Source: a bacterium
GTDB lineage: Bacteria > Acidobacteriota > Terriglobia > Terriglobales > Acidobacteriaceae
NCBI GenBank assembly: GCA_026225095.1
Contig: JAMFSC010000186.1
Coordinates: 1-64,000 of the forward strand
Reading direction: 5' to 3'
DNA: 64,000 bases
The position numbers and the translations under genes are program-made. The first letter of the stretch is position 1, and every line of letters starts with the position of its first letter. The notes beneath the pieces are model-generated. The model was not told where the DNA came from. It made no database searches and saw nothing but the letters and a program-made list of their open reading frames with translations. Below are positions 16,916 to 63,802 of this stretch, one piece after another.

Positions 16916-16991
16916 GGACGCGTAGCTCAGTTGGTAGAGCATTCGACTCTTAATCGACTGGTCGTAGGTTCGATCCCTACCGCGTCCACCA
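16916..16991 (+). tRNA. tRNA-Lys (CTT anticodon)
   Basis: Acceptor stem GGACGCG (16916-16922) pairs with CGCGTCC (16981-16987), followed by the discriminator A and an encoded CCA. The D-loop is AGCTCAGTTGGTAGAGC and the T-arm GTAGGTTCGATCCCTAC. The anticodon loop CTCTTAA gives anticodon CTT (Lys). Its 3' half, from 16943, is the left copy of the prophage attachment repeat, so the gene is still intact after integration. Confidence 0.95.
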
Positions 16992-17019
16992 TTTCCCTCT
17001 CTCAAAATAAACGACTTAC
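16943..17019 (+). repeat. attL: left copy of 77-bp attachment core
   Basis: Identical over 77 bp to 60816-60892. It begins in the anticodon arm of tRNA-Lys (TCGACTCTTAATCGACTGG) and runs past the tRNA end to ATAAACGACTTAC. Beyond it the two sites stay about 80% alike for roughly 44 more bases. Confidence 0.95.
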
Positions 17020-17258: not shown

Positions 17259-17420
17259 ATGGCCGTTCTTCGTCTCGTTCTTCTGGGTGTCCTTATCGGT
17301 TCCGCTTGCCTCGCAGCAGAACGCGCGATTCCCTTTTCGTCCGCTCACGCCACACTCACTGCTGGCCCGATTCCGCTCTGTCCTCCGAATGGCAATCCGG
17401 ACTGCTCGCTGGGCAACTGA
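17259..17420 (+). CDS. Small secreted peptide precursor, cassette 1
   Basis: 53 residues. The N-terminal signal peptide is MAVLRLVLLGVLIGSACLAA with a likely signal peptidase I cut after LAA; the cysteine in GSAC is a weak lipobox alternative. The remaining ~33 residues are Pro/Asn-rich with two cysteines (PIPLCPPNGNPDCSLGN at the C-terminus). A good ribosome site, GGAGGA, precedes the ATG by 4 bp. It ends 19 bp before the 7-TM gene. A gene of the same size, also with a signal peptide, precedes the homologous 7-TM gene at 61.6 kb, which argues that both are real. Function unknown. Confidence 0.55.
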   Translation: MAVLRLVLLGVLIGSACLAAERAIPFSSAHATLTAGPIPLCPPNGNPDCSLGN

Positions 17421-17439
17421 GTCGTAGAGGATTGACCTA

Positions 17440-18174
17440 ATGCACCTGACAAGGCTCGAATACGTGATTTGGGGCCTCTGGTTCGGTACGCTCTTTGTCT
17501 CCGCGGCGTTCATGCTGCATAGAAAGAGCTACCGCCAGTGGCCCTTTCTCTTTGCGCTCACATGCACCCAGACTCTGATTCAGATTGCCTTGTACTCTCT
17601 GTCTGGCAGAAAGCACTACCCTGCCTACTTCTACACCTACTGGACCGGAATCGCGCTCTGTGCGTTGCTGCAGCTCGGCGTCGTCGTCGATATCGTTCGG
17701 GCCATTCCGAGGATCCGCTGTGCGCCCTGGCGCCTGATGATTCTCTTCGTCTCGATCGCTGCAACCATCTCGATCGGGAGCGCGTGGATGGCGAGCGATG
17801 CCCACCCGCAGGTTCCCCACGCTACGGCCATCGCCTTGACGATCGCACGCAGCTCCTCCGTGCTCGCCGTCTCGTTTGGCCTTTCCATGTTCCTTTCGCT
17901 GGGCTCACTCAGCATTGGATGGAGTACGCCAGCTCTTCGCGTCGCGAGCGGCTTCCTGGTCGCGAACCTGATGGCGATGGCAGCTGCCTACGTGATGACC
18001 TGGCGAGTTCAATGGTTCCGCCAGACAGATCAGATCCAGACCTGCCTCGACATGGGCGTCTGGGTCTTTTGGACTTTTACCGCTTGCAGGACTTTCTCCA
18101 CTCCCACCATCTCCATCGAGGCTTCGAATGCCGTCATCAAGAAAGGCATCAAGTTCGCCGCCAGCCCTTTTTAG
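17440..18174 (+). CDS. Seven-helix membrane protein, cassette 1
   Basis: 244 residues with about seven hydrophobic segments and short loops. It is distantly similar to the protein at 61626-62396. Shared features are a Trp-containing first helix, a motif of the form R-x-x-Y/W-R-x-F/W-P-x-F at the start of helix 2, Q-x-L with aromatic YxxY-YW preceding helix 3, and an I-x-R after it. No catalytic motif was recognised, so receptor, transporter or membrane enzyme are all open. It sits between a secreted peptide gene (19 bp upstream) and a membrane-anchored partner (18 bp downstream). Not a phage structural gene; carried as cargo just inside attL. Confidence 0.75.
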   Translation: MHLTRLEYVIWGLWFGTLFVSAAFMLHRKSYRQWPFLFALTCTQTLIQIALYSLSGRKHYPAYFYTYWTGIALCALLQLGVVVDIVRAIPRIRCAPWRLMILFVSIAATISIGSAWMASDAHPQVPHATAIALTIARSSSVLAVSFGLSMFLSLGSLSIGWSTPALRVASGFLVANLMAMAAAYVMTWRVQWFRQTDQIQTCLDMGVWVFWTFTACRTFSTPTISIEASNAVIKKGIKFAASPF

Positions 18175-18192
18175 AGAAAGTCGGGTTCATCC

Positions 18193-18699
18193 ATGCACCT
18201 TCTGCCACAGTACCTTTACCCGGCGGGCATCAGCGGTTTCGTCGCGGTTTACTGGCTCGCCAGCTTCAGAAAGAGGTCGCTGAAGTCACCTGAAGCAATT
18301 TTCAGCGCTCTCGACCAATCAGAAAACGAGGGAATGGAGTCTTACGTCGCGGAAGATGGATTCCAGATCATCCCTTGCGATCAGAAGTTCTATCTGGCAT
18401 TCAAGCAGTGGAGAGGATTTGTGAGCAGGCGCCGTAAAGCCGGACTCTTTGTCCAGTTCTGTCAACAGCTCGATACCAGCGATGCCAACATCGAGTATCT
18501 GACCACCCGTTCCATGCTGATCTCGTTCTTCTGCTGTTGCGCCCTGTTCGAGGCTGGTGCGCGGATTTTTGCCGGTGACCTTCCTCACGTCTGCGCCCAG
18601 ATCGTCTTTCAACTCTACTGGGAGATGGAACGCCGCTTCACGTTGCTCTGCAGCGAGTTGCGACCCGATCTCCTCGATAACCTGCACAAGATGCTGTAG
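18193..18699 (+). CDS. Membrane-anchored partner protein, cassette 1
   Basis: 168 residues. One N-terminal transmembrane helix (YLYPAGISGFVAVYWLASF) is followed by a cytoplasmic-looking helical domain with many Phe/Cys (LISFFCCCALFEAG) and a C-terminal ELRPDLLDNLHKML. Not recognised. The same gene order (peptide, 7-TM, membrane-anchored 170-180-residue protein) recurs at 62.4 kb. Similarity of the two partner proteins is low by eye but their size, anchor position and helical body agree. Cotranscribed with the 7-TM gene (18-bp gap). Confidence 0.7.
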   Translation: MHLLPQYLYPAGISGFVAVYWLASFRKRSLKSPEAIFSALDQSENEGMESYVAEDGFQIIPCDQKFYLAFKQWRGFVSRRRKAGLFVQFCQQLDTSDANIEYLTTRSMLISFFCCCALFEAGARIFAGDLPHVCAQIVFQLYWEMERRFTLLCSELRPDLLDNLHKML

Positions 18700-37462: not shown

Positions 37463-38332
37463 CTAGTCGAGATCGGCCAGACGTAAGTTGCGGTCGCGGA
37501 TGCTGACAGCTATCAGCGCGTTCTGCTGAACTTGTGCGGCGATCTGCGATGCTTCGGCAGACGCACCCATCGCGGCGTCGCAGGTGCACCCCTCGCAGGT
37601 GCAGTCGGGGTCGGAGCAATCGCCACAATCGCCCAGAAGACATTCCGGACATGGGCAGGTGCAGGAAACGCCGGAATTCTCCGAATTAGCGGAGATTTTC
37701 GCTGCTTTCACCCGATTCTGGAGACTTTTCGGGACATTTTTGAACGCTTTCAGGTCGTATCCCGAAGCCGATGCCGCCATCTTCAAAGGTGTTTCCACCA
37801 ACCCATCGGCCCAGCCCTCGGCAACTGCTGCGTCCGCCGTGTACCAGGTCTCAGCATCCATGATGCTGCGGACTCGAACCGGGTCAATTCCCGACCTCTG
37901 GTACGCGATCGCCATCTGACCGCTCACCGTTTCCAGCAGAGCAGCAACCTCACGCAACGCTGTCGGATCGCCGTAGGTCATCGTACGGGCGTTGTGGATC
38001 ATCATCATGGCTGTGGGTTGCATCTGGATCGTGTCGCCGGCCATGGCAATGACCGATGCGATCGATGCGGCGATCCCGTCGACCACCACATTGACCGTGG
38101 CGGGGTGTGACTTCAGAGCGTTATAGATCGCCATCCCTTCAAAGACGGCTCCGCCATCGGAGTTGATCCGCACCGTCAGCGTCTTGACACTGCCCAGCGC
38201 AGCGAGCTGCTCGACGAAGGCCTTCGCGCCCAATCCCCCGAAGAAGCCTTCCCCGATATCTTCATAAATGAGAACCTCGGCGGAATCGCCCTTTGCCGTG
38301 ATCCTGCTCAGTTGCCTTTTCATCTGGATCAA
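37463..38332 (-). CDS. ClpP-like prohead protease with cysteine-rich tail
   Basis: 289 residues. ClpP/S14-type core: RINSDGGAVFEGMAIYNAL, catalytic Ser90 in DGIAASIASVIAMAG and His113 in MMMIHNARTM. It matures the capsid by cutting the delta domain (family knowledge). Residues 224-251 contain ten cysteines in 28 positions with spacing C-x-C-x-C-xx-C-x4-C-xx-C-x4-C-x-C-xx-C-x-C, followed by an Ala/Gln-rich end. The cluster suggests metal binding. Start overlaps the portal stop by 4 bp. Confidence 0.9.
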   Translation of the reverse strand: MIQMKRQLSRITAKGDSAEVLIYEDIGEGFFGGLGAKAFVEQLAALGSVKTLTVRINSDGGAVFEGMAIYNALKSHPATVNVVVDGIAASIASVIAMAGDTIQMQPTAMMMIHNARTMTYGDPTALREVAALLETVSGQMAIAYQRSGIDPVRVRSIMDAETWYTADAAVAEGWADGLVETPLKMAASASGYDLKAFKNVPKSLQNRVKAAKISANSENSGVSCTCPCPECLLGDCGDCSDPDCTCEGCTCDAAMGASAEASQIAAQVQQNALIAVSIRDRNLRLADLD

Positions 38333-39609
38333 CCTTTCTCCGTGTCGGGAACCGGTGCGCCGGGCTTCTCTTTGCCCGTGCTCGTGTTGGGATTCTCGAA
38401 GACGCCGCCCTTGCCGTCAGGCCGCTTGTTCCGACCCTCGCCCGCCCTCGCCTCATCCGGGCAGAGCCAGGTATTGGCGATACCCGATGCGTAGTAATTC
38501 GCCCGGGCCTGCATGTCACCGCGCTGCAGGGAGTCCACATCGAAGCGGGCGAAGTACTTCTTCCGTTCACTCGGCAGAAGCAGGTCGCGGTTGATCGTGA
38601 GCTCGTAGCGGCGCAACCACGGCACCAGGCTCGAATTCACGAAGTCCATGGTCAGGTGCTCAATATTGTTGAACGTCGCCCGGCTCATCTCCTGGATCTT
38701 GTGCGGGGGAACCCGATAGATTCTGCAGATCTCCTCGAGCTGGAAGCGCCGGGCCTCGATGAACTGAGAGTCGACGTTCGTCATCGAAAGCTTGTTCGCC
38801 TTCATGCCTTCTTCCAGGATCAGGGGCGTCCAGGCATTGGCCGATCCCGAGTACTTATCCTTGAAAGAGTCCTTCAGACGCTTGTATGCCGTATCCGACA
38901 GTACATCCGGGACCTCCATGGTCACCGAGAGCTGCGCACCATTGGTAAAGAGCTTCGCTCCGTGCTCTTCGGTCGCCATCGCCAGACCGATCGACTCGCG
39001 GGCGTAGGTCAGCGGACTCACTCCCTCCACGCCGTTGTGGGTCATCCCGATCACGCGCCAGCACTGCTCTACTCCAAACTCACGGATCGGCCCGCCGGGC
39101 TGCATGAAGGAGTAGGCCAGGGCTCCTCCAGGAGTCCGAAACATCCGCACCCAATCGGGATTGAGCGGGTTGATCTCGACCACCTGGCCTTCGGAACGGA
39201 CAACCTGATGAAAGGCCCTGCCACGCAGACAGAGATGATTCATCCCCATCTCCAGCACATCCTGCGAGGTCATCTCCGGGTTGGGCAGATTGAGCAGGCG
39301 CTGGTAGAGCGGGTGCTGGTCAGCCGGATCGGCGCCACCCGCGGAACGCTTGTAAAGGATCAGCGGAAGCTGACCGACAGACTGGGAGAGCACTGAGACG
39401 CACGCGTATACGGCCGCCACACGCATCGAGGTTTCCGGAGTAACAATCTTCCCCGAAGCACTCGGACGCCCGCCAAAGGCCTCGTAGAGCCATGGCGCAG
39501 GACTGGACAGCGGCCATGTCAACGCACCGCTCGCCTGCAGGCCAAGTCCAACCGGCTCCGGCGAGGTCAGCGCGTCGTACGCTTCGCCAATTTTGGAAAG
39601 CAGGGTCAA
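38329..39609 (-). CDS. Portal protein, HK97 family
   Basis: 426 residues. Portal signatures: MRVAAVYACVSVLSQSVGQLPLILYKR, HPLYQRLLNLPNPEMTSQDVLEMGMNHLCLRGRAFHQVV, EEGMKANKLSMTNVDSQFIEARRFQLEEICRIYRVPPHKIQEMSRATFNNIEH. C-terminus is disordered and Gly/Lys/Pro-rich, as often in portals. Forms the dodecameric DNA channel at one capsid vertex. Starts 18 bp after the terminase stop. Confidence 0.93.
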   Translation of the reverse strand: MTLLSKIGEAYDALTSPEPVGLGLQASGALTWPLSSPAPWLYEAFGGRPSASGKIVTPETSMRVAAVYACVSVLSQSVGQLPLILYKRSAGGADPADQHPLYQRLLNLPNPEMTSQDVLEMGMNHLCLRGRAFHQVVRSEGQVVEINPLNPDWVRMFRTPGGALAYSFMQPGGPIREFGVEQCWRVIGMTHNGVEGVSPLTYARESIGLAMATEEHGAKLFTNGAQLSVTMEVPDVLSDTAYKRLKDSFKDKYSGSANAWTPLILEEGMKANKLSMTNVDSQFIEARRFQLEEICRIYRVPPHKIQEMSRATFNNIEHLTMDFVNSSLVPWLRRYELTINRDLLLPSERKKYFARFDVDSLQRGDMQARANYYASGIANTWLCPDEARAGEGRNKRPDGKGGVFENPNTSTGKEKPGAPVPDTEKG

Positions 39610-39626
39610 AGGAGCTCCAGGAAAAG

Positions 39627-41345
39627 CTACAGGGTGCGGATACCACGGGTTTCGTAGACGGATTCACGTGGGGCCGGCGCGACGTAGGCCCTGTTCATCG
39701 CATTGAAGAGTGCAGAGGCAGGATCGATCTTGCTGTCGACCTGCTCCTTGAGCGGGAAGATGTTGTCGTTGTTGTCGATCCGGACGACAACGTTCGAGAT
39801 TCCCCAGGTCAAGACGGGATCTCCATCGTGATGGAAGCGGCCTGAGATGACCGCGGCTTCGAGTTCCTTCATCGGCTCCGAAAGATGCTGTACAGTTTGC
39901 GGGATCGTGACGATGACTCCTTCCTTGACCTGCTTCTCCAACTTCTGCTGCATCTGTTGGGCCGAGTACTGGTCGAAGGCGATACAGGCATGATTGAAGA
40001 GTGGGATCTCTGTTTCGATCTCCGACTCGATCCGGGCAAGTTGAATCTCCGGACCATCGTGCGCAACCATCTTGCCCTGACCGATCCAGTCCAGGTAATG
40101 AGAGTGGCGGCCATCCATCGCCGTATCCTTCGGGACGTAGTGCCTGCCGAAGGCGTAGTAGTGAATCTGACCACCCACAAGCTTCTTATAGAGCTTCGCG
40201 CGAGACGCCAGGTCGATGCGAGCTGCAAGGTCCACGCCCTCATAACAGAGCTGGCCTCGAAAGTCATTCAGACTTAGTTCAGGATCGGCGCAGCGGATCC
40301 ACGCCTCCATGTTCATCCAGCCGCTTGCCGCGCCGTTCCAGATGTTGAGGTGCTTCGTCTTGAAGATGCTCTGAAGGTGCGCCGATTGAAGTGCGCGGCG
40401 AAGCTCCCTTTCCAGAAACTCCGGCTTTACCGATACTCCATAGTTCGGATTTGCCTTGCGAAGTGCCTTCGGTGACTTCCAATCGTCATCGACATCGATC
40501 GTGTAAATCAGAGCGAACAGATTGGGGTTGTCGATCCGTTTCGCAAGCACCTTCTGTGCGTCCAGCCTCATCGCGTAACACGGACCAGCCAGATTGCTCC
40601 CCGCGGTTGTGATGCAGATGAGCAGCGGCTGCTGGCGTGCTCCCATGCCGGTTCGCATGGTGTCAATCAGGATGGGCGTCGGATGTTCGTGGACCTCATC
40701 GAGGATCGCGCACGACGGAGACGCACCATCTCCTGGGTTGCCGACCAATGGGGTAAAACGAGATCCATCTTCCTCCCTGTAGATACTCTTTACCGCGTGC
40801 TCTACGCCGAAATAGCGCTCGAAATCGGGCGAGCGGCGGGCCATTTGCAGGGCCGTGCGAAACACCTCCATCGCCTGACGCTCTGTGGTGGCGCCGCAGT
40901 AGACCTCCGCCCCAAACTCGCGATCAGCCGCGAGCATGTAGAGACCGACGCCGGCCGCCCATGTCGACTTGGCCTGCTTGCGCGGCTCCTCGTCATAGAC
41001 CTCCGTAAACTGACGAAGCCCAGTCGCCTTCTCTACCCACCCGAAGATGGAACACGTCTTGAAAAGCTGCCACGGCTCCAACTTGAGCCGGACACTGTGA
41101 CCAGGGCGCGGGCGAGCCCACTCACCCTTGACGTGGGGCAGCTGCTCGATAAAGCGGCATACGTAGTTCGCCTTCGCCTCATCGAAGCGATACGGGTAGC
41201 GTTTCTTGACCGAATCAGCGAGACCATCCAGGTGCCGCTGGCAGGCCTGGCGCACAAAGAGACATTCGTCTCTCTTCCCGGCGACAACATCCCTGGCATA
41301 CTGGTGCGCAACCTCTGAGTAAGAGAGCTTAGTTGACGGCAGCAC
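39627..41345 (-). CDS. Terminase large subunit
   Basis: About 572 residues. ATPase: Walker A-like EEPRKQAKSTWAAGVGLYML and Walker B SCAILDEVHEHP, with coupling motif ICITTAGSN. Nuclease domain: Asp in YEGVDLAARIDLASRAKLY and in CIAFDQYSAQQM. GTG 41345 is preferred because it overlaps the small-subunit stop by only 17 bp; ATG 41429 in the same frame would overlap by 101 bp. Translocates DNA into the prohead and cuts concatemers. Confidence 0.92.
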   Translation of the reverse strand: MLPSTKLSYSEVAHQYARDVVAGKRDECLFVRQACQRHLDGLADSVKKRYPYRFDEAKANYVCRFIEQLPHVKGEWARPRPGHSVRLKLEPWQLFKTCSIFGWVEKATGLRQFTEVYDEEPRKQAKSTWAAGVGLYMLAADREFGAEVYCGATTERQAMEVFRTALQMARRSPDFERYFGVEHAVKSIYREEDGSRFTPLVGNPGDGASPSCAILDEVHEHPTPILIDTMRTGMGARQQPLLICITTAGSNLAGPCYAMRLDAQKVLAKRIDNPNLFALIYTIDVDDDWKSPKALRKANPNYGVSVKPEFLERELRRALQSAHLQSIFKTKHLNIWNGAASGWMNMEAWIRCADPELSLNDFRGQLCYEGVDLAARIDLASRAKLYKKLVGGQIHYYAFGRHYVPKDTAMDGRHSHYLDWIGQGKMVAHDGPEIQLARIESEIETEIPLFNHACIAFDQYSAQQMQQKLEKQVKEGVIVTIPQTVQHLSEPMKELEAAVISGRFHHDGDPVLTWGISNVVVRIDNNDNIFPLKEQVDSKIDPASALFNAMNRAYVAPAPRESVYETRGIRTL

Positions 41346-41775
41346 GCTCTTCCGCGAGCGCCGCCCAGCCGTCTGGGGTCCGACTGTCAACTTCCTTGGC
41401 TTTTCGGATGGCAATGCGGGTCCTTCCATGCGGGTTCAACCCGAACCGATCCAAATACGCCAAGCTCGTGTTCAAAATACTCGCGGGAGTGTCGAGCGGG
41501 TTCCGTTCGATTTGAAGTTGAGCCGTGCACAAATTCGCGAAGGCAGTATTGTCGCTGCTCGTCAGAGCACCTTCAGGAACTTCCTTTTCGAGGCGCCGCC
41601 AGATAGCCAGCAACGCCAATGAAGTGGGAGATTTCGCATTCAGGAAATGCGCGGGCGGCGAACCCAAAGGAGCGCTCGGCCGCGGTTCGTCCATCCGGTC
41701 TCGGAACCTTTGTGGGTCCTTGCTTATTGCGCCGCTTGCCTCATGCACAGCGATCGGCTTACGTGGACGTCCCAT
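41329..41775 (-). CDS. Terminase small subunit, P27 family
   Basis: 148 residues. GRPRKPIAVHEASGAISKDPQRFRDRMDEPRPSAPLGSPPAHF is the P27-type start. The rest is helical (ALLAIWRRLEKEVPEGALTSSDNTAFANLCTAQLQIERNP) and ends in SLAYLDRFGLNPHGRTRIA. Recognises the packaging site and recruits the large subunit. The 247-bp gap upstream (41776-42022), between it and the HNH gene, contains no gene and is the expected location of a cos site. Confidence 0.85.
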   Translation of the reverse strand: MGRPRKPIAVHEASGAISKDPQRFRDRMDEPRPSAPLGSPPAHFLNAKSPTSLALLAIWRRLEKEVPEGALTSSDNTAFANLCTAQLQIERNPLDTPASILNTSLAYLDRFGLNPHGRTRIAIRKAKEVDSRTPDGWAALAEERAAVN

Positions 41776-59332: not shown

Positions 59333-59396
59333 ATTATTGGGAGTAAATCGATTTGTCAATCTTTTTGTTTGCGTAATTACGCAATAGATGTATAAC
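59333..59396. promoter_or_regulatory. Divergent early/integration control region with palindromic operator
   Basis: Between the repressor-like gene (leftward) and excisionase (rightward). Leftward: TTGACA (59354-59359, minus strand) with ATAATG (59332-59337) 16 bp away. Rightward: TATAAC (59391-59396) with a weak TTTGCG (59368-59373) 17 bp upstream. The perfect 16-bp palindrome TTGCGTAATTACGCAA lies at 59369-59384 between them. Confidence 0.7.
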
Positions 59397-59422
59397 ACCT
59401 ACAAAGGTAGGGACGAAACGCC

Positions 59423-59635
59423 ATGGAAAAAATGCTCAATACAGCGCAGGCCGCCGAGATGCTCGGCGTCGAAGCCGCTACACTCCGCACCTGGAAGGCA
59501 CAGCGCAAGGGTCCACCGTTCGTGCAGCTCTCTCCGCGCTGCGTGCGTTATGCTGAGCGGGACATACTCACGTATGGCAGAGAGCGCCGTGTGGTCCCAT
59601 CCATGCCAGACACCCGGAGGCACCATGGCGCTTAG
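59423..59635 (+). CDS. Excisionase (MerR/AlpA-like HTH)
   Basis: 70 residues. MLNTAQAAEMLGVEAATLRTWKAQRKGPPFVQLSPRCVRYAERDILTYG is a typical excisionase/HTH_17 domain. Its end overlaps the integrase start (TAG 59633-59635 inside the ATG codon run). Directs prophage excision. Confidence 0.88.
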   Translation: MEKMLNTAQAAEMLGVEAATLRTWKAQRKGPPFVQLSPRCVRYAERDILTYGRERRVVPSMPDTRRHHGA

Positions 59636-60776
59636 AAAAGAACCAGGCAGTCCGTTCCTGTACTACGACTTCTACTTCCTTGGGAAGCGGCATCGCGGAT
59701 CGACTGAGGCGAAAACGAAGATGGCGGCCCGTGAAGTTGAAGCAAAAGTGCTCCTTGGGTTGATGGAAGGCAGCGCCCCCAAGCGCCGCCAGAAGCCGCC
59801 CACCCTGCGCGAGTTCTCCACCCGCTGGCTCGAGTGGGTGGAGACGTCGCGTACGCTCAAACCCAACAGCCGTAAGTACTACGAGTATGGCTGGCGGCTG
59901 CTCTCGCTCTCGAGGCTGGCGGAGATGTACATCGATCAGATCACCACCGAGATGGTCGACTGCACTTCGTTCGAGCGGCCGGTCATCAACCGCAAGACGA
60001 AAGAGTCGACCGGTGTCATGGTTCCCTGCTCGAAGTCCTACACCAGCCAGGCACTCCGCACGCTCAAGACGATGCTCGGATCTGCGATCGAATGGAAAAT
60101 CCTCTCGTCCCGTCCAAAGTTCGCCATGCCGGCGACGGTGGCACGCGACCAGATGATTGACCAGGACGCGGAGATCCGAATCCAGGATGCCCTGCAGATC
60201 GAAACCGAGAGCAACGCCCACCGCTGGATGCGCAGCCGGGCGTGGCTCGTGGTTGTCGTCCTGCAGGACACCGGGATGCGCCCGTGCGAGGTGTTCCCGA
60301 TGCGAATCGAGAACCTTCACTTCGACGCCGACCGGATCTGGGTGCCCAACGGAAAGACGAAGAACGCGACCCGCTTCGTCTCGATGAGCGAGCGCGTGAA
60401 GCGGATGCTGCTGGATGCAACACGCGGCCGCTCCGGCTGGGTGTTTCCATCCAAGCGTGCGAAGTCGGGCCATCTCGAATCGATCTCCAAGAGCTTCGCT
60501 GCGGCCTGCGTCCGGGCTGGAGTCGATCCACGGATTGTCCCTTATTCCGCTCGTCACACCTACGCTACTTACCAGGTCGAGGCGACAGGGAACATCTTCG
60601 CCGTCTCGAAATCGATGGGCCACGCCAACGTGCAGTCAATGACCCCCTACCAGCACGCCGACACGTCGCAACTCAACCGCAAGATTGACGAGCGCAATCG
60701 AGCCCGCGAACTGCGCCGTTTCCAACTCCTGACCGATAGTCAGACTTTTGGTCAGACAACATCCACGATCCAGTAA
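59625..60776 (+). CDS. Tyrosine integrase
   Basis: 383 residues from ATG 59625 (GGAGG 4 bp upstream). N-terminal arm-binding domain, core-binding domain (LREFSTRWLEWVETSRTLKPNSRKYYEYGWRLL) and catalytic domain: Arg in VLQDTGMRPCEVFPM, Lys in NGKTKNATR, HxxR-like in YSARHTYAT, His in SKSMGHANVQ and Tyr in MTPYQHADTS. The C-terminal ~20 residues are encoded by the arm-like repeat (QTFGQT). Stops 40 bp before attR. Confidence 0.93.
   Translation: MALRKEPGSPFLYYDFYFLGKRHRGSTEAKTKMAAREVEAKVLLGLMEGSAPKRRQKPPTLREFSTRWLEWVETSRTLKPNSRKYYEYGWRLLSLSRLAEMYIDQITTEMVDCTSFERPVINRKTKESTGVMVPCSKSYTSQALRTLKTMLGSAIEWKILSSRPKFAMPATVARDQMIDQDAEIRIQDALQIETESNAHRWMRSRAWLVVVVLQDTGMRPCEVFPMRIENLHFDADRIWVPNGKTKNATRFVSMSERVKRMLLDATRGRSGWVFPSKRAKSGHLESISKSFAAACVRAGVDPRIVPYSARHTYATYQVEATGNIFAVSKSMGHANVQSMTPYQHADTSQLNRKIDERNRARELRRFQLLTDSQTFGQTTSTIQ
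60738..60757 (+). promoter_or_regulatory. Candidate integrase arm-type sites, right
   Basis: AGTCAGACTTTT at 60738 and GGTCAGAC at 60750 inside the integrase 3' end, matching the array at 17096-17130. Confidence 0.5.
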
Positions 60777-60815: not shown

Positions 60816-60892
60816 TCGACTCTTAATCGACTGGTCGTAGGTTCGATCCCTACCGCGTCCACCATTTCCCTCTCTCAAAATAAACGACTTAC
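60816..60892 (+). repeat. attR: right copy of 77-bp attachment core
   Basis: Identical to 16943-17019. It contains only the 3' half of tRNA-Lys, without the acceptor 5' strand. The next ~44 bp resemble the start of the prophage interior at 17020-17063 at about 80% identity. The 520-bp stretch 60893-61412 has no convincing gene. Confidence 0.95.
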
Positions 60893-61412: not shown

Positions 61413-61568
61413 ATGCAAAAGCTACTTCGTTCGCTCGCACTCTTCGCTGCTCTATCGTCAGTAGGTCCCATGCTTGTCGCGGAAACGATGGGGACGAACC
61501 CGAGGCCTCGCCTTGAGGCTTCGGGTCTCTTGATGCTACAACTCTCATTCGAAATTTATATGGGTTAA
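61413..61568 (+). CDS. Small secreted peptide precursor, cassette 2
   Basis: 51 residues. Signal peptide MQKLLRSLALFAALSSVGPM then LVAE, probably cut after LVA. The mature peptide starts ETMGTNPRPRLEASG and ends in a hydrophobic LQLSFEIYMG. AGGAG lies 6 bp before ATG. The position 58 bp upstream of the second 7-TM gene parallels the first cassette. Little sequence similarity to the first peptide except a possible (P)RLEASG versus ATLTAG alignment. Confidence 0.5.
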   Translation: MQKLLRSLALFAALSSVGPMLVAETMGTNPRPRLEASGLLMLQLSFEIYMG

Positions 61569-61625
61569 TAATACGCGTATAGTGGGAATCCATAGTTTTC
61601 GTGCCTGTGATCACCCAAATAGGTG

Positions 61626-62971: not shown

Positions 62972-63802
62972 TCACGACAGGCTTCGTGGCCCACCGACCG
63001 TCTGAAGCTCCATAAGAACACTTAGCATACTCAGTCGATATAAGAGACACTCACGCAATTGCTGCAAGTCGCCGGTATACCATTCGGCGGGGACCTGGTT
63101 TACTCCTCTACGCAAGAGTTCAGGAATCACTTGCGTGAAGTAGTTGAGCCAATGGTCGGCACTTCGGTCCTCCCATGGGCGAGCCTGAAGATGGACGCAT
63201 TCGGGTCGTCGCGCATTGCCTGCGATCTCGGACCATGCTGCTCCCCCAAAGAGATGGCGGTTATTGACGAAAAAAGCCTGATAGCCGCCACTATTCAGAT
63301 TCTGGCGATAGATGCACTGGCGTTGATCCTGGTGACTAGCCCAGACATCAAAGATGTACATCCCCAGGAACTCCGCTCTGTTTGCGATTCGGGGCAAGCG
63401 CGATGTTTCTAACCATTCGACCAGTTCAAAGCCGATTCGATCCATGAATTCGGAAGCAAAGTAGACTCCGCTTTTGGGCAGGATATCACCCCATTCTTCT
63501 CTTAATGTGTGGTCTACCGAAGCCTGGACCGTACTGCGGTTTACAACTACATTGCGCGAAGACGGAGTTTGAAAACCTAATGCTCGAATCAAGTAGGATC
63601 CCAGAATCTCGTTAGCCAGTACGTTCGGCTCCTGCGGATTGCAATTCAATCGCAACGAGTACAACTTTCCGTCATCACATCGAGCCAAAATGCCGTTTGA
63701 GCCGCCCCTGAGCCGTCTTATGATGGACACCACCTCAATTGTCGGTATCTCAACGGCGACGTCGGAGAATCCATTCGGCGTTAGTTGACCTTGGATCGGC
63801 AC
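62972..63802 (-). CDS. HipA-like kinase
   Basis: 276 residues from GTG 63802 with a strong GGAGGA ribosome site. VSIIRRLRGGSNGILARCDDGKLYSLRLNCNPQEPNVLANEILGSYLIRALGF and FVNNRHLFGG fit the HipA-like (HipA_2) domain. Catalytic Asp/His pair expected in WASHQDQRQCIYRQ with DVW preceding. Shorter than classical HipA and without a HipB antitoxin next to it. The region 63803-64000 shows no gene. Confidence 0.75.
   Translation of the reverse strand: MPIQGQLTPNGFSDVAVEIPTIEVVSIIRRLRGGSNGILARCDDGKLYSLRLNCNPQEPNVLANEILGSYLIRALGFQTPSSRNVVVNRSTVQASVDHTLREEWGDILPKSGVYFASEFMDRIGFELVEWLETSRLPRIANRAEFLGMYIFDVWASHQDQRQCIYRQNLNSGGYQAFFVNNRHLFGGAAWSEIAGNARRPECVHLQARPWEDRSADHWLNYFTQVIPELLRRGVNQVPAEWYTGDLQQLRECLLYRLSMLSVLMELQTVGGPRSLS

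Follow-up and report, generated by a model that had tools for sequence, protein, structure and literature searches.

The window analysed here, i.e. the whole stretch of 64,000 nucleotides at the start of contig JAMFSC010000186.1 (assembly GCA_026225095.1, Acidobacteriaceae), carries two forward-strand cassettes, each consisting of a gene for a small peptide precursor, a gene for a protein with seven transmembrane helices (7-TM) and a gene for a membrane-anchored protein. In cassette 1, the precursor (17259..17420, +, 53 aa), which is preceded by a GGAGG sequence and possesses a Sec-type signal peptide, contains the core ...GPIPLCPPNGNPDCSLGN. It is followed after 19 bp by the gene of the 7-TM protein P0001 (17440..18174, +, 244 aa), for which a GPCR/rhodopsin-like fold is predicted, and this in turn after 18 bp by the gene of P0003 (18193..18699, +, 168 aa), an anchored protein with an N-terminal hydrophobic helix. 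The precursor of cassette 2 (61413..61568, +, 51 aa) is of type A and shows a signal peptide, the motif GTNPRP and a hydrophobic C-terminal tail; on our home-made signal-peptide score, used with a cut-off of >= 3.0, it reaches 3.12, which is below the stricter value of 3.3. The gene of the 7-TM protein P0002 begins at 61623 (GTG) or 61626 (ATG) and runs to 62396 (+, 257 or 256 aa), where it shares an ATGA overlap with the gene of the anchored protein P0004 (62393..62938, +, 181 aa). The spacing is thus unlike that of cassette 1, with a first gap of 54-57 bp and a 4-bp overlap of the last two genes. Both precursors hold a single core. The two cassettes of like order and topology that a sequence-only reading of this DNA had described, as well as the gaps of 19 and 18 bp in the first, are hereby confirmed. 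With GC contents of 0.568 (cassette 1) and 0.531 (cassette 2), both lie below the window as a whole (0.610). The same genome possesses a type-B gene on contig C207, with the precursor ...MPVPMCPPDDPNGC..., and a further cassette on contig C71, with the precursor ...VEPDPPLCPARAC....

The sequence-only reading had also taken the cassette for prophage cargo, which holds for cassette 1 and not for cassette 2. The left att repeat (16943..17019) comprises the 3' part of a tRNA-Lys gene (16916-16991) together with downstream sequence, and recurs as an exact 77-bp copy at 60816..60892, beyond which similarity with mismatches runs on to 60936. Beside this right copy lies the prophage integrase (59388..60776, +; phrog_1, E 1.2e-43), and genes for head protease, portal and large terminase (37463..41429, - strand) confirm the prophage, which also includes a tail fibre and an XRE-type regulator. 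Cassette 1 is situated between the att repeats, adjoining the left prophage end, whereas cassette 2 lies outside the prophage, past the right att copy and adjoining the right end. Directly past cassette 2, in the GC-poor right prophage flank, a HipA-like kinase is encoded (62972-63802, - strand; Pfam HipA_2, E 3.6e-9).

P0001 and P0002 share 21% identity over 250 columns (BLASTP, E 8e-7 in a single comparison), and a leave-one-out comparison of P0001 with the type-A profile yields 50.5 bits, the best of 500 shuffles reaching 7.5 bits; judged by these alignments, the two 7-TM proteins are homologous. For the anchored proteins, similarity between P0003 and P0004 was not detectable. P0004 is 22-39% identical to 21 A2 rows from other genomes and 17% identical to P0003, while P0003 scores 5.7 bits against the anchored-protein profile of the family (leave-one-out; best of 500 shuffles 5.8). 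P0003 is a positional analogue of the family partner, the agreement being one of position and topology only. Within the family, type-A loci encode a 7-TM protein of about 258 aa together with an anchored partner, and type-B loci a 7-TM protein of about 310 aa and no such partner. The core ...GPIPLCPPNGNPDCSLGN is of the type-B kind (P.P.C.P...C), like motifs being found in type-B precursors, so that in cassette 1 the peptide resembles type B and the gene order type A. When the 587 small ORFs (35-110 aa) in the six frames of the window were searched with two peptide patterns, both drawn after the family was known and with the window's two peptides included, P.C[AP]P..C occurred in one, the peptide at 17259, and G[TGSN][NDSLV]P.P likewise in one, the peptide at 61413.

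None of the proteins P0001-P0004 has a convincing match in Pfam, NCBIfam, PHROGs or PADLOC, in line with the earlier reading, which knew of no family described for the cassette. PADLOC yields no family for the four proteins at E <= 1, and a weak match of P0001 to VanZ-F (E 0.015) amounts to 15.5 bits against a cut-off of 375. Among 36 type-B/window and 26 type-A/window members scanned against Pfam at E <= 1, no 7TMR-DISM, 7TMR-HD or 5TMR-LYT model was matched, the best matches being DUF7434 (E 0.0022) and LysO (E 0.0035); nor did the Pfam scans show a kinase domain in the 7-TM proteins (about 240-320 aa). Among the papers listed by a search of the open-access literature, which does not extend to subscription papers, none dealt with such a system. 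By the measure of these profile searches, the 7-TM genes are an undescribed family.

When 61 genomes were searched with P0002 at E <= 0.01, 25 had a match, all of them of the host genus (25/37; others 0/24), where relatives are up to 49% identical. Some first-pass 7-TM matches at this threshold are spurious, including at least L024 among those found with P0002. With P0001, matches were found in 22 of the 61 genomes. Within the class, the type-A profile detects members in 101 of 299 genomes and in 30 of 106 genera (E <= 1e-5); within the phylum, a broad profile does so in 58 of 396 genomes (E <= 1e-6), namely 43 of the host family, 2 elsewhere in the class and 13 outside it, these kinship groups being read from list order. 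Among the genomes listed, from which 318 non-matching ones are absent, a single host-family genome has no match to the broad profile. The carriers that bear a name belong to Edaphobacter, Granulicella and relatives; culturable ones with a type-B locus are e.g. Edaphobacter modestus DSM 18101, Edaphobacter lichenicola M8UP30 and Granulicella aggregans M8UP14 (loci L158, L162, L182). The matches in the 13 genomes outside the class are weak; the 15 loci taken there include 6 that reach the precursor score, with only L252 and L258 convincing by eye, so that we reject a phylum-wide system. Five class loci added later include four with a signal-peptide ORF, and on the opposite strand of these and the extra-class loci such an ORF occurs in 1/20 cases. 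Two type-B loci (L181, L188) come from records titled Rhodanobacteraceae, which are probably mislabelled Acidobacteriaceae bins.

Members were also found on phages and plasmids by searching those collections with P0002. The Tunturiibacter jumbo phage Tunturi_5 (PP885688) encodes a 7-TM protein, ORF204, which is annotated as hypothetical and matches profile A1 with E 7.9e-31; an unannotated signal-peptide ORF of 103 aa lies just upstream. The available part of the Tunturi paper (PMC11924767) does not mention ORF204. At this locus (L193, Tunturi_5 139971-148243), the 7-TM gene is flanked by genes annotated as an ADP-ribosyltransferase exoenzyme toxin and a MutT/NUDIX hydrolase. The Acidisarcina plasmids pACPOL1 and pACPOL3 each carry a precursor, a 7-TM gene and an anchored gene, the precursors showing AVGGTNPRP and AVGGGAPRP; in pACPOL3 the anchored gene is split over two frames. 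A search of the phage collection with P0001 gave no match, and scans of IMG/VR with P0001, P0002, A3, A4, A5 and A6 found no relatives.

The sequence-only reading had suggested looking for a short signal-peptide ORF ahead of the 7-TM homologues, and in most cases we observed one. Upstream sequence sufficed for a linkage count in 132 of 143 unique 7-TM genes; the end of the ORF had to fall within an interval from 420 bp before the start of the 7-TM domain to 45 bp past it. At a score of >= 3.0, a signal-peptide ORF is present before 118/132 genes, compared to 11/132 on the opposite strand and 14/125 in a downstream interval; at >= 3.3, the numbers are 105 upstream, 7 on the opposite strand and 7 downstream. 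Four 7-TM relatives (L022, L023, L102, L108) follow a phosphoesterase-like gene, as read from the translations, and show no convincing precursor; these are possibly receptors without a peptide of their own. At L086/L095, L096 and L099, at least two 7-TM genes stand in a row, in L095 and L096 with a single repeat precursor in front.

The anchored gene anticipated downstream was likewise recovered, in type A. An anchored ORF directly follows the 7-TM gene in 40 of the 44 type-A members scoring above 150 bits, in 23 of 46 at 60-150 bits, some of which are spurious members, and in all nine below 60 bits; in many distant members it overlaps the 7-TM gene by 4 bp. In type B it occurs at 2/40 loci, both cases being spurious, i.e. 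type B has no partner. Clustering of 20 larger contexts revealed no gene besides the cassette that is common to most of them, and a fixed neighbourhood was rejected, since these contexts share little else. In four of the 20 (L196, L208, L209, L213), a convergent XRE-type regulator gene lies just downstream of the type-A cassette. One neighbour cluster has 13 members, including L145, a locus of a more distant family. Downstream of 28 type-B loci a common convergent gene is found, which we take to be rpsA from the S1-type repeats in its translation.

At a laxer score, 122 precursors were called, about ten of which are spurious by eye. P.P or PP after residue 22 is present in 110 of the 122 (a raw count with no control set). 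Internal repeats were flagged in 22/122 called precursors, or 21 when L173, an artefact of masked sequence, is left out, and two to five tandem precursor genes at 22/122 loci; one or the other applies to 44/122. Examples of repeats are AVTGSDPMPKSKGGLT (x10), ASPATPRPLPPPAVA (x9) and GPMLPTPTPPGG (x9). Type-A cores are e.g. GTNPRP, GGNPHP and GTDPEP, with a hydrophobic C-terminal tail in the close group, and type-B cores are e.g. LPVPTCAPNDPNACGMG. According to a hand count, 32 of the 38 named type-B loci have a complete precursor, two are masked, three lie at contig ends and one (L185) has none; two to five precursor copies are present in 17 of the 32 complete loci, likewise counted by hand. 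Since some assemblies have masked stretches or gaps in the precursor arrays (L041, L170, L173), copy numbers from drafts are lower bounds.

To measure selection on the peptide, we compared 66 precursor copies from 29 type-B loci. Between copies of the same locus, the core shows 25.5 nonsynonymous changes per 3110 sites and 214.5 synonymous changes per 1006 sites, whereas leader and spacer show 443.2 per 5792 and 467.8 per 2161 sites, respectively, which corresponds to dN/dS values of 0.04 and 0.35. The synonymous rates of core (0.213) and leader plus spacer (0.216) are equal, which speaks against conversion; we therefore rejected gene conversion as the cause of the near-identical cores. Between loci, the core diverges with a dN of 0.284 and a dN/dS of 0.42, compared to 0.67 for leader and spacer. 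In 15 repeat precursors, in which units were sought allowing about 40% substitutions (this tolerant search added one unit each in L141 and L139), the unit dN is 0-0.058 at a raw dS of 0.05-0.755. In L077, L085, L100 and L153, with raw dS values of 0.43, 0.65, 0.60 and 0.755, the unit dN is 0-0.011, while the next four codons show a dN of 0.18-0.53. The four codons after the unit are variable in 10 of the 15 precursors and unchanged in the other 5, where young duplication would also explain the identity of the units. For type A, ten close loci (some identical) give a precursor dN/dS of 0.29, with 0.16 for the signal and 0.36 for the mature part, which between species is less conserved than the signal. 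The peptide ORF is hence under purifying selection in both types. A chance ORF can be rejected on the basis of linkage, purifying selection and the uniqueness of the motifs among the 587 window ORFs. Judged by these values, the core is translated and functional and must stay uniform within a genome, though not between species.

To account for the 7-TM protein in structural terms, AF2 models of P0001 and of the type-B protein L162 were compared with known folds, the scope being that of the VIA lists. The P0001 model, for which 2 window rows were aligned with 34 type-B rows of 18-25% identity to P0001, shows seven long helices with a mean pLDDT of 79.6; the L162 model likewise has seven helices (pLDDT 76.4) and a low-confidence tail. 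The structural matches shown for both models consist almost entirely of GPCRs and rhodopsins. Those of P0001 include bacteriorhodopsin (Z 15.2, rmsd 3.7, 204 aligned) and Ste2 (Z 14.7, rmsd 4.2, 220 aligned), and those of L162 the GPCR-like part of LYCHOS (Z 13.2, rmsd 3.9, 191 aligned), the CGRP receptor (Z 13.1, rmsd 4.2, 200 aligned) and Ste2 (Z 12.0, rmsd 4.3, 208 aligned). Foldseek searches of the PDB gave weak matches (best E 0.048 and 0.044 for the two models), and a Z of up to about 13 can be reached by any helical bundle without kinship. Thus, the 7-TM proteins are GPCR/rhodopsin-like in their predicted fold, in the sense of resemblance only. A microbial rhodopsin was ruled out for P0001, as its predicted helix 7 (residues 190-217) contains no lysine and hence no retinal site.

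A count of K/R residues in L162 gives 3, 2 and 3 for the loops that follow helices 1, 3 and 5, and 2, 0 and 0 for those of the other side, which places the N-terminus outside. Sequence conservation is polarised across the membrane. In type B, entropies are 1.60 bits for the outer half and 2.04 for the outer loops, compared to 1.05 and 0.96 for their inner counterparts; in type A, the respective values are 2.06 and 2.20 versus 1.63 and 1.44. The cytoplasmic tail is the most conserved part of type B (0.84 bits) and variable in type A (2.10). Five columns (W, Q, W, G, W) are invariant in the A1 alignment. Across 29 type-B loci, core divergence follows that of the outer half when the inner half is accounted for (partial r 0.47, 0/5000 permutations), whereas for the inner half given the outer the partial r is 0.15 (p 0.108). 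With about 88 entropy-matched columns, the core values are 0.51 (outer) and 0.11 (inner); the controls give -0.20 and 0.35 for the leader and 0.27 and 0.35 for the spacer. This sample is type B, while both window cassettes are type A by gene order. Such co-variation would be expected of a ligand-receptor pair, and also of a toxin paired with an immunity protein.

In conclusion, when linkage, purifying selection on the core, tandem multiplication, type-B co-variation, conservation polarity and predicted fold are taken together as computed support, we consider it reasonably likely that the cassette is a peptide-signalling system made up of an exported peptide ligand, a stand-alone 7-TM receptor and an anchored cytoplasmic transducer. 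The proposal of an exported peptide, a polytopic protein and an anchored partner acting as an undescribed signalling or immunity module is supported in that linkage, partner and selection all came out as it implied, and signalling is favoured over immunity. Hereby, the Sec-exported precursor would be cut to yield a short proline-rich core peptide, which would be released beyond the periplasm and bound at the variable outer face of the seven-helix protein, whose N-terminus is predicted to lie outside. In type A, the conserved inner face would then act on the membrane-anchored cytoplasmic partner, which may transduce the signal to an output; in type B, with its conserved tail and no partner, the inner face would act on something else in the cell. 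That the 40 type-B loci have no anchored partner counts against the signalling reading, as do the variable cytoplasmic tail of type A and the lower conservation of the mature type-A peptide relative to its signal. Each cassette would represent a private channel, with cores near-identical within a genome and core and outer face changing together between species, and prophage, jumbo phage and plasmids would carry channels of their own. The hydrophobic C-terminal tail of type A might keep the core in the membrane.

The main rival, which we regard as unlikely, is a bacteriocin-like system, in which neighbouring cells are inhibited by the exported peptide, while the producer is shielded by its 7-TM protein, either alone or together with the anchored protein. 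Small exported peptides in multiple copies beside a membrane protein, carriage by phage and plasmids, and species-specific cores would all be expected from it, and peptide-immunity pairs would co-vary at the outer face just as ligand and receptor do. By eye, however, the cores are short and proline-rich and neither strongly cationic nor amphipathic, and conservation in type B is strongest on the cytoplasmic side and in the tail (0.84-1.05 versus 1.60-2.04 bits), which immunity does not call for. Type A moreover adds a separate anchored partner, although its 7-TM tail is variable, and PADLOC and PHROGs hold no clear match for the four cassette proteins.

Two further explanations leave the receptor elsewhere or dispense with it. 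The 7-TM protein could be the membrane protease or exporter of the peptide, the receptor being encoded at another site, and both the tight gene linkage and the co-variation of core and outer face would be compatible with this role. We consider it improbable, as the precursor comes with a Sec signal of its own, the invariant A1 columns W, Q, W, G, W do not resemble a catalytic set, Pfam gives no convincing match and the fold matches are receptors and rhodopsins. Slightly less probable still is a peptide that serves as structural or regulatory subunit of a 7-TM/anchored complex and carries no signal between cells. The close-group type-A cores, mostly single-copy and ending in a hydrophobic tail, would suit such a subunit, but a precursor can contain as many as 10 cores and a locus as many as 5 genes, and in several cases the cores are invariant while the spacers that separate them vary; this suggests that small peptides are released in large number.

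In soil, Acidobacteriota rank among the commonest bacteria. If the signalling reading is true, dozens of ligand-receptor pairs could be predicted in which the genome directly reveals the sequence of the ligand, a bacterial GPCR-like fold would act as peptide receptor without a fused kinase, and the cassettes would provide a model for mobile elements that bring private signalling channels along. Beyond this, we tentatively put forward, at somewhat less than even chances, that Acidobacteriota have an independent pheromone language based on the GPCR fold, in which the channels of mobile elements count kin or listen to and steer their hosts.

Compared to known systems, the cassettes share single features with several. 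Multi-core RiPP precursors contain several cores behind a cytoplasmic leader; here, too, several cores can occur in one precursor, but this has a Sec signal, and no gene besides the cassette is common to most of the 20 contexts. Agr-type quorum sensing (AgrD/AgrB/AgrC) relies on a peptide signal. AgrC is described in the accessible part of PMC10653868 as a polytopic membrane protein with its N-terminus outside, as is predicted for the 7-TM protein next to the peptide here. In contrast to Agr, the precursor has a Sec signal, the hosts are Gram-negative Acidobacteriota and the 7-TM protein has no histidine kinase domain. AgrB is part of the Agr operon; the 20 clustered contexts show no extra gene common to most. 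BtsS (LytS-type), according to the same part of that source (PMC10653868), has seven helices, an outer N-terminus and a ligand at the outer side. Seven helices and an outer N-terminus are thus features shared with 7TMR-DISM, 7TMR-HD and LytS-type BtsS proteins, from which the present family differs by being stand-alone, with no fused kinase or HD domain, and by its linkage to a peptide gene. Microbial rhodopsins resemble the predicted P0001 model in fold (bacteriorhodopsin) but, unlike them, P0001 has no lysine in helix 7. In yeast, the alpha-factor precursor is secreted and holds repeated core peptides. The system described here differs from alpha-factor and its class D GPCR Ste2 in being bacterial, in probably using an anchored partner instead of a G protein, and in sequence, as profile A9 obtains four matches among PDB sequences at E <= 1, none of them a GPCR. 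It resembles them in an exported precursor, multi-core at part of the loci, and a 7-TM protein with a predicted outer N-terminus, and Ste2 is among the structural matches of both predicted models.
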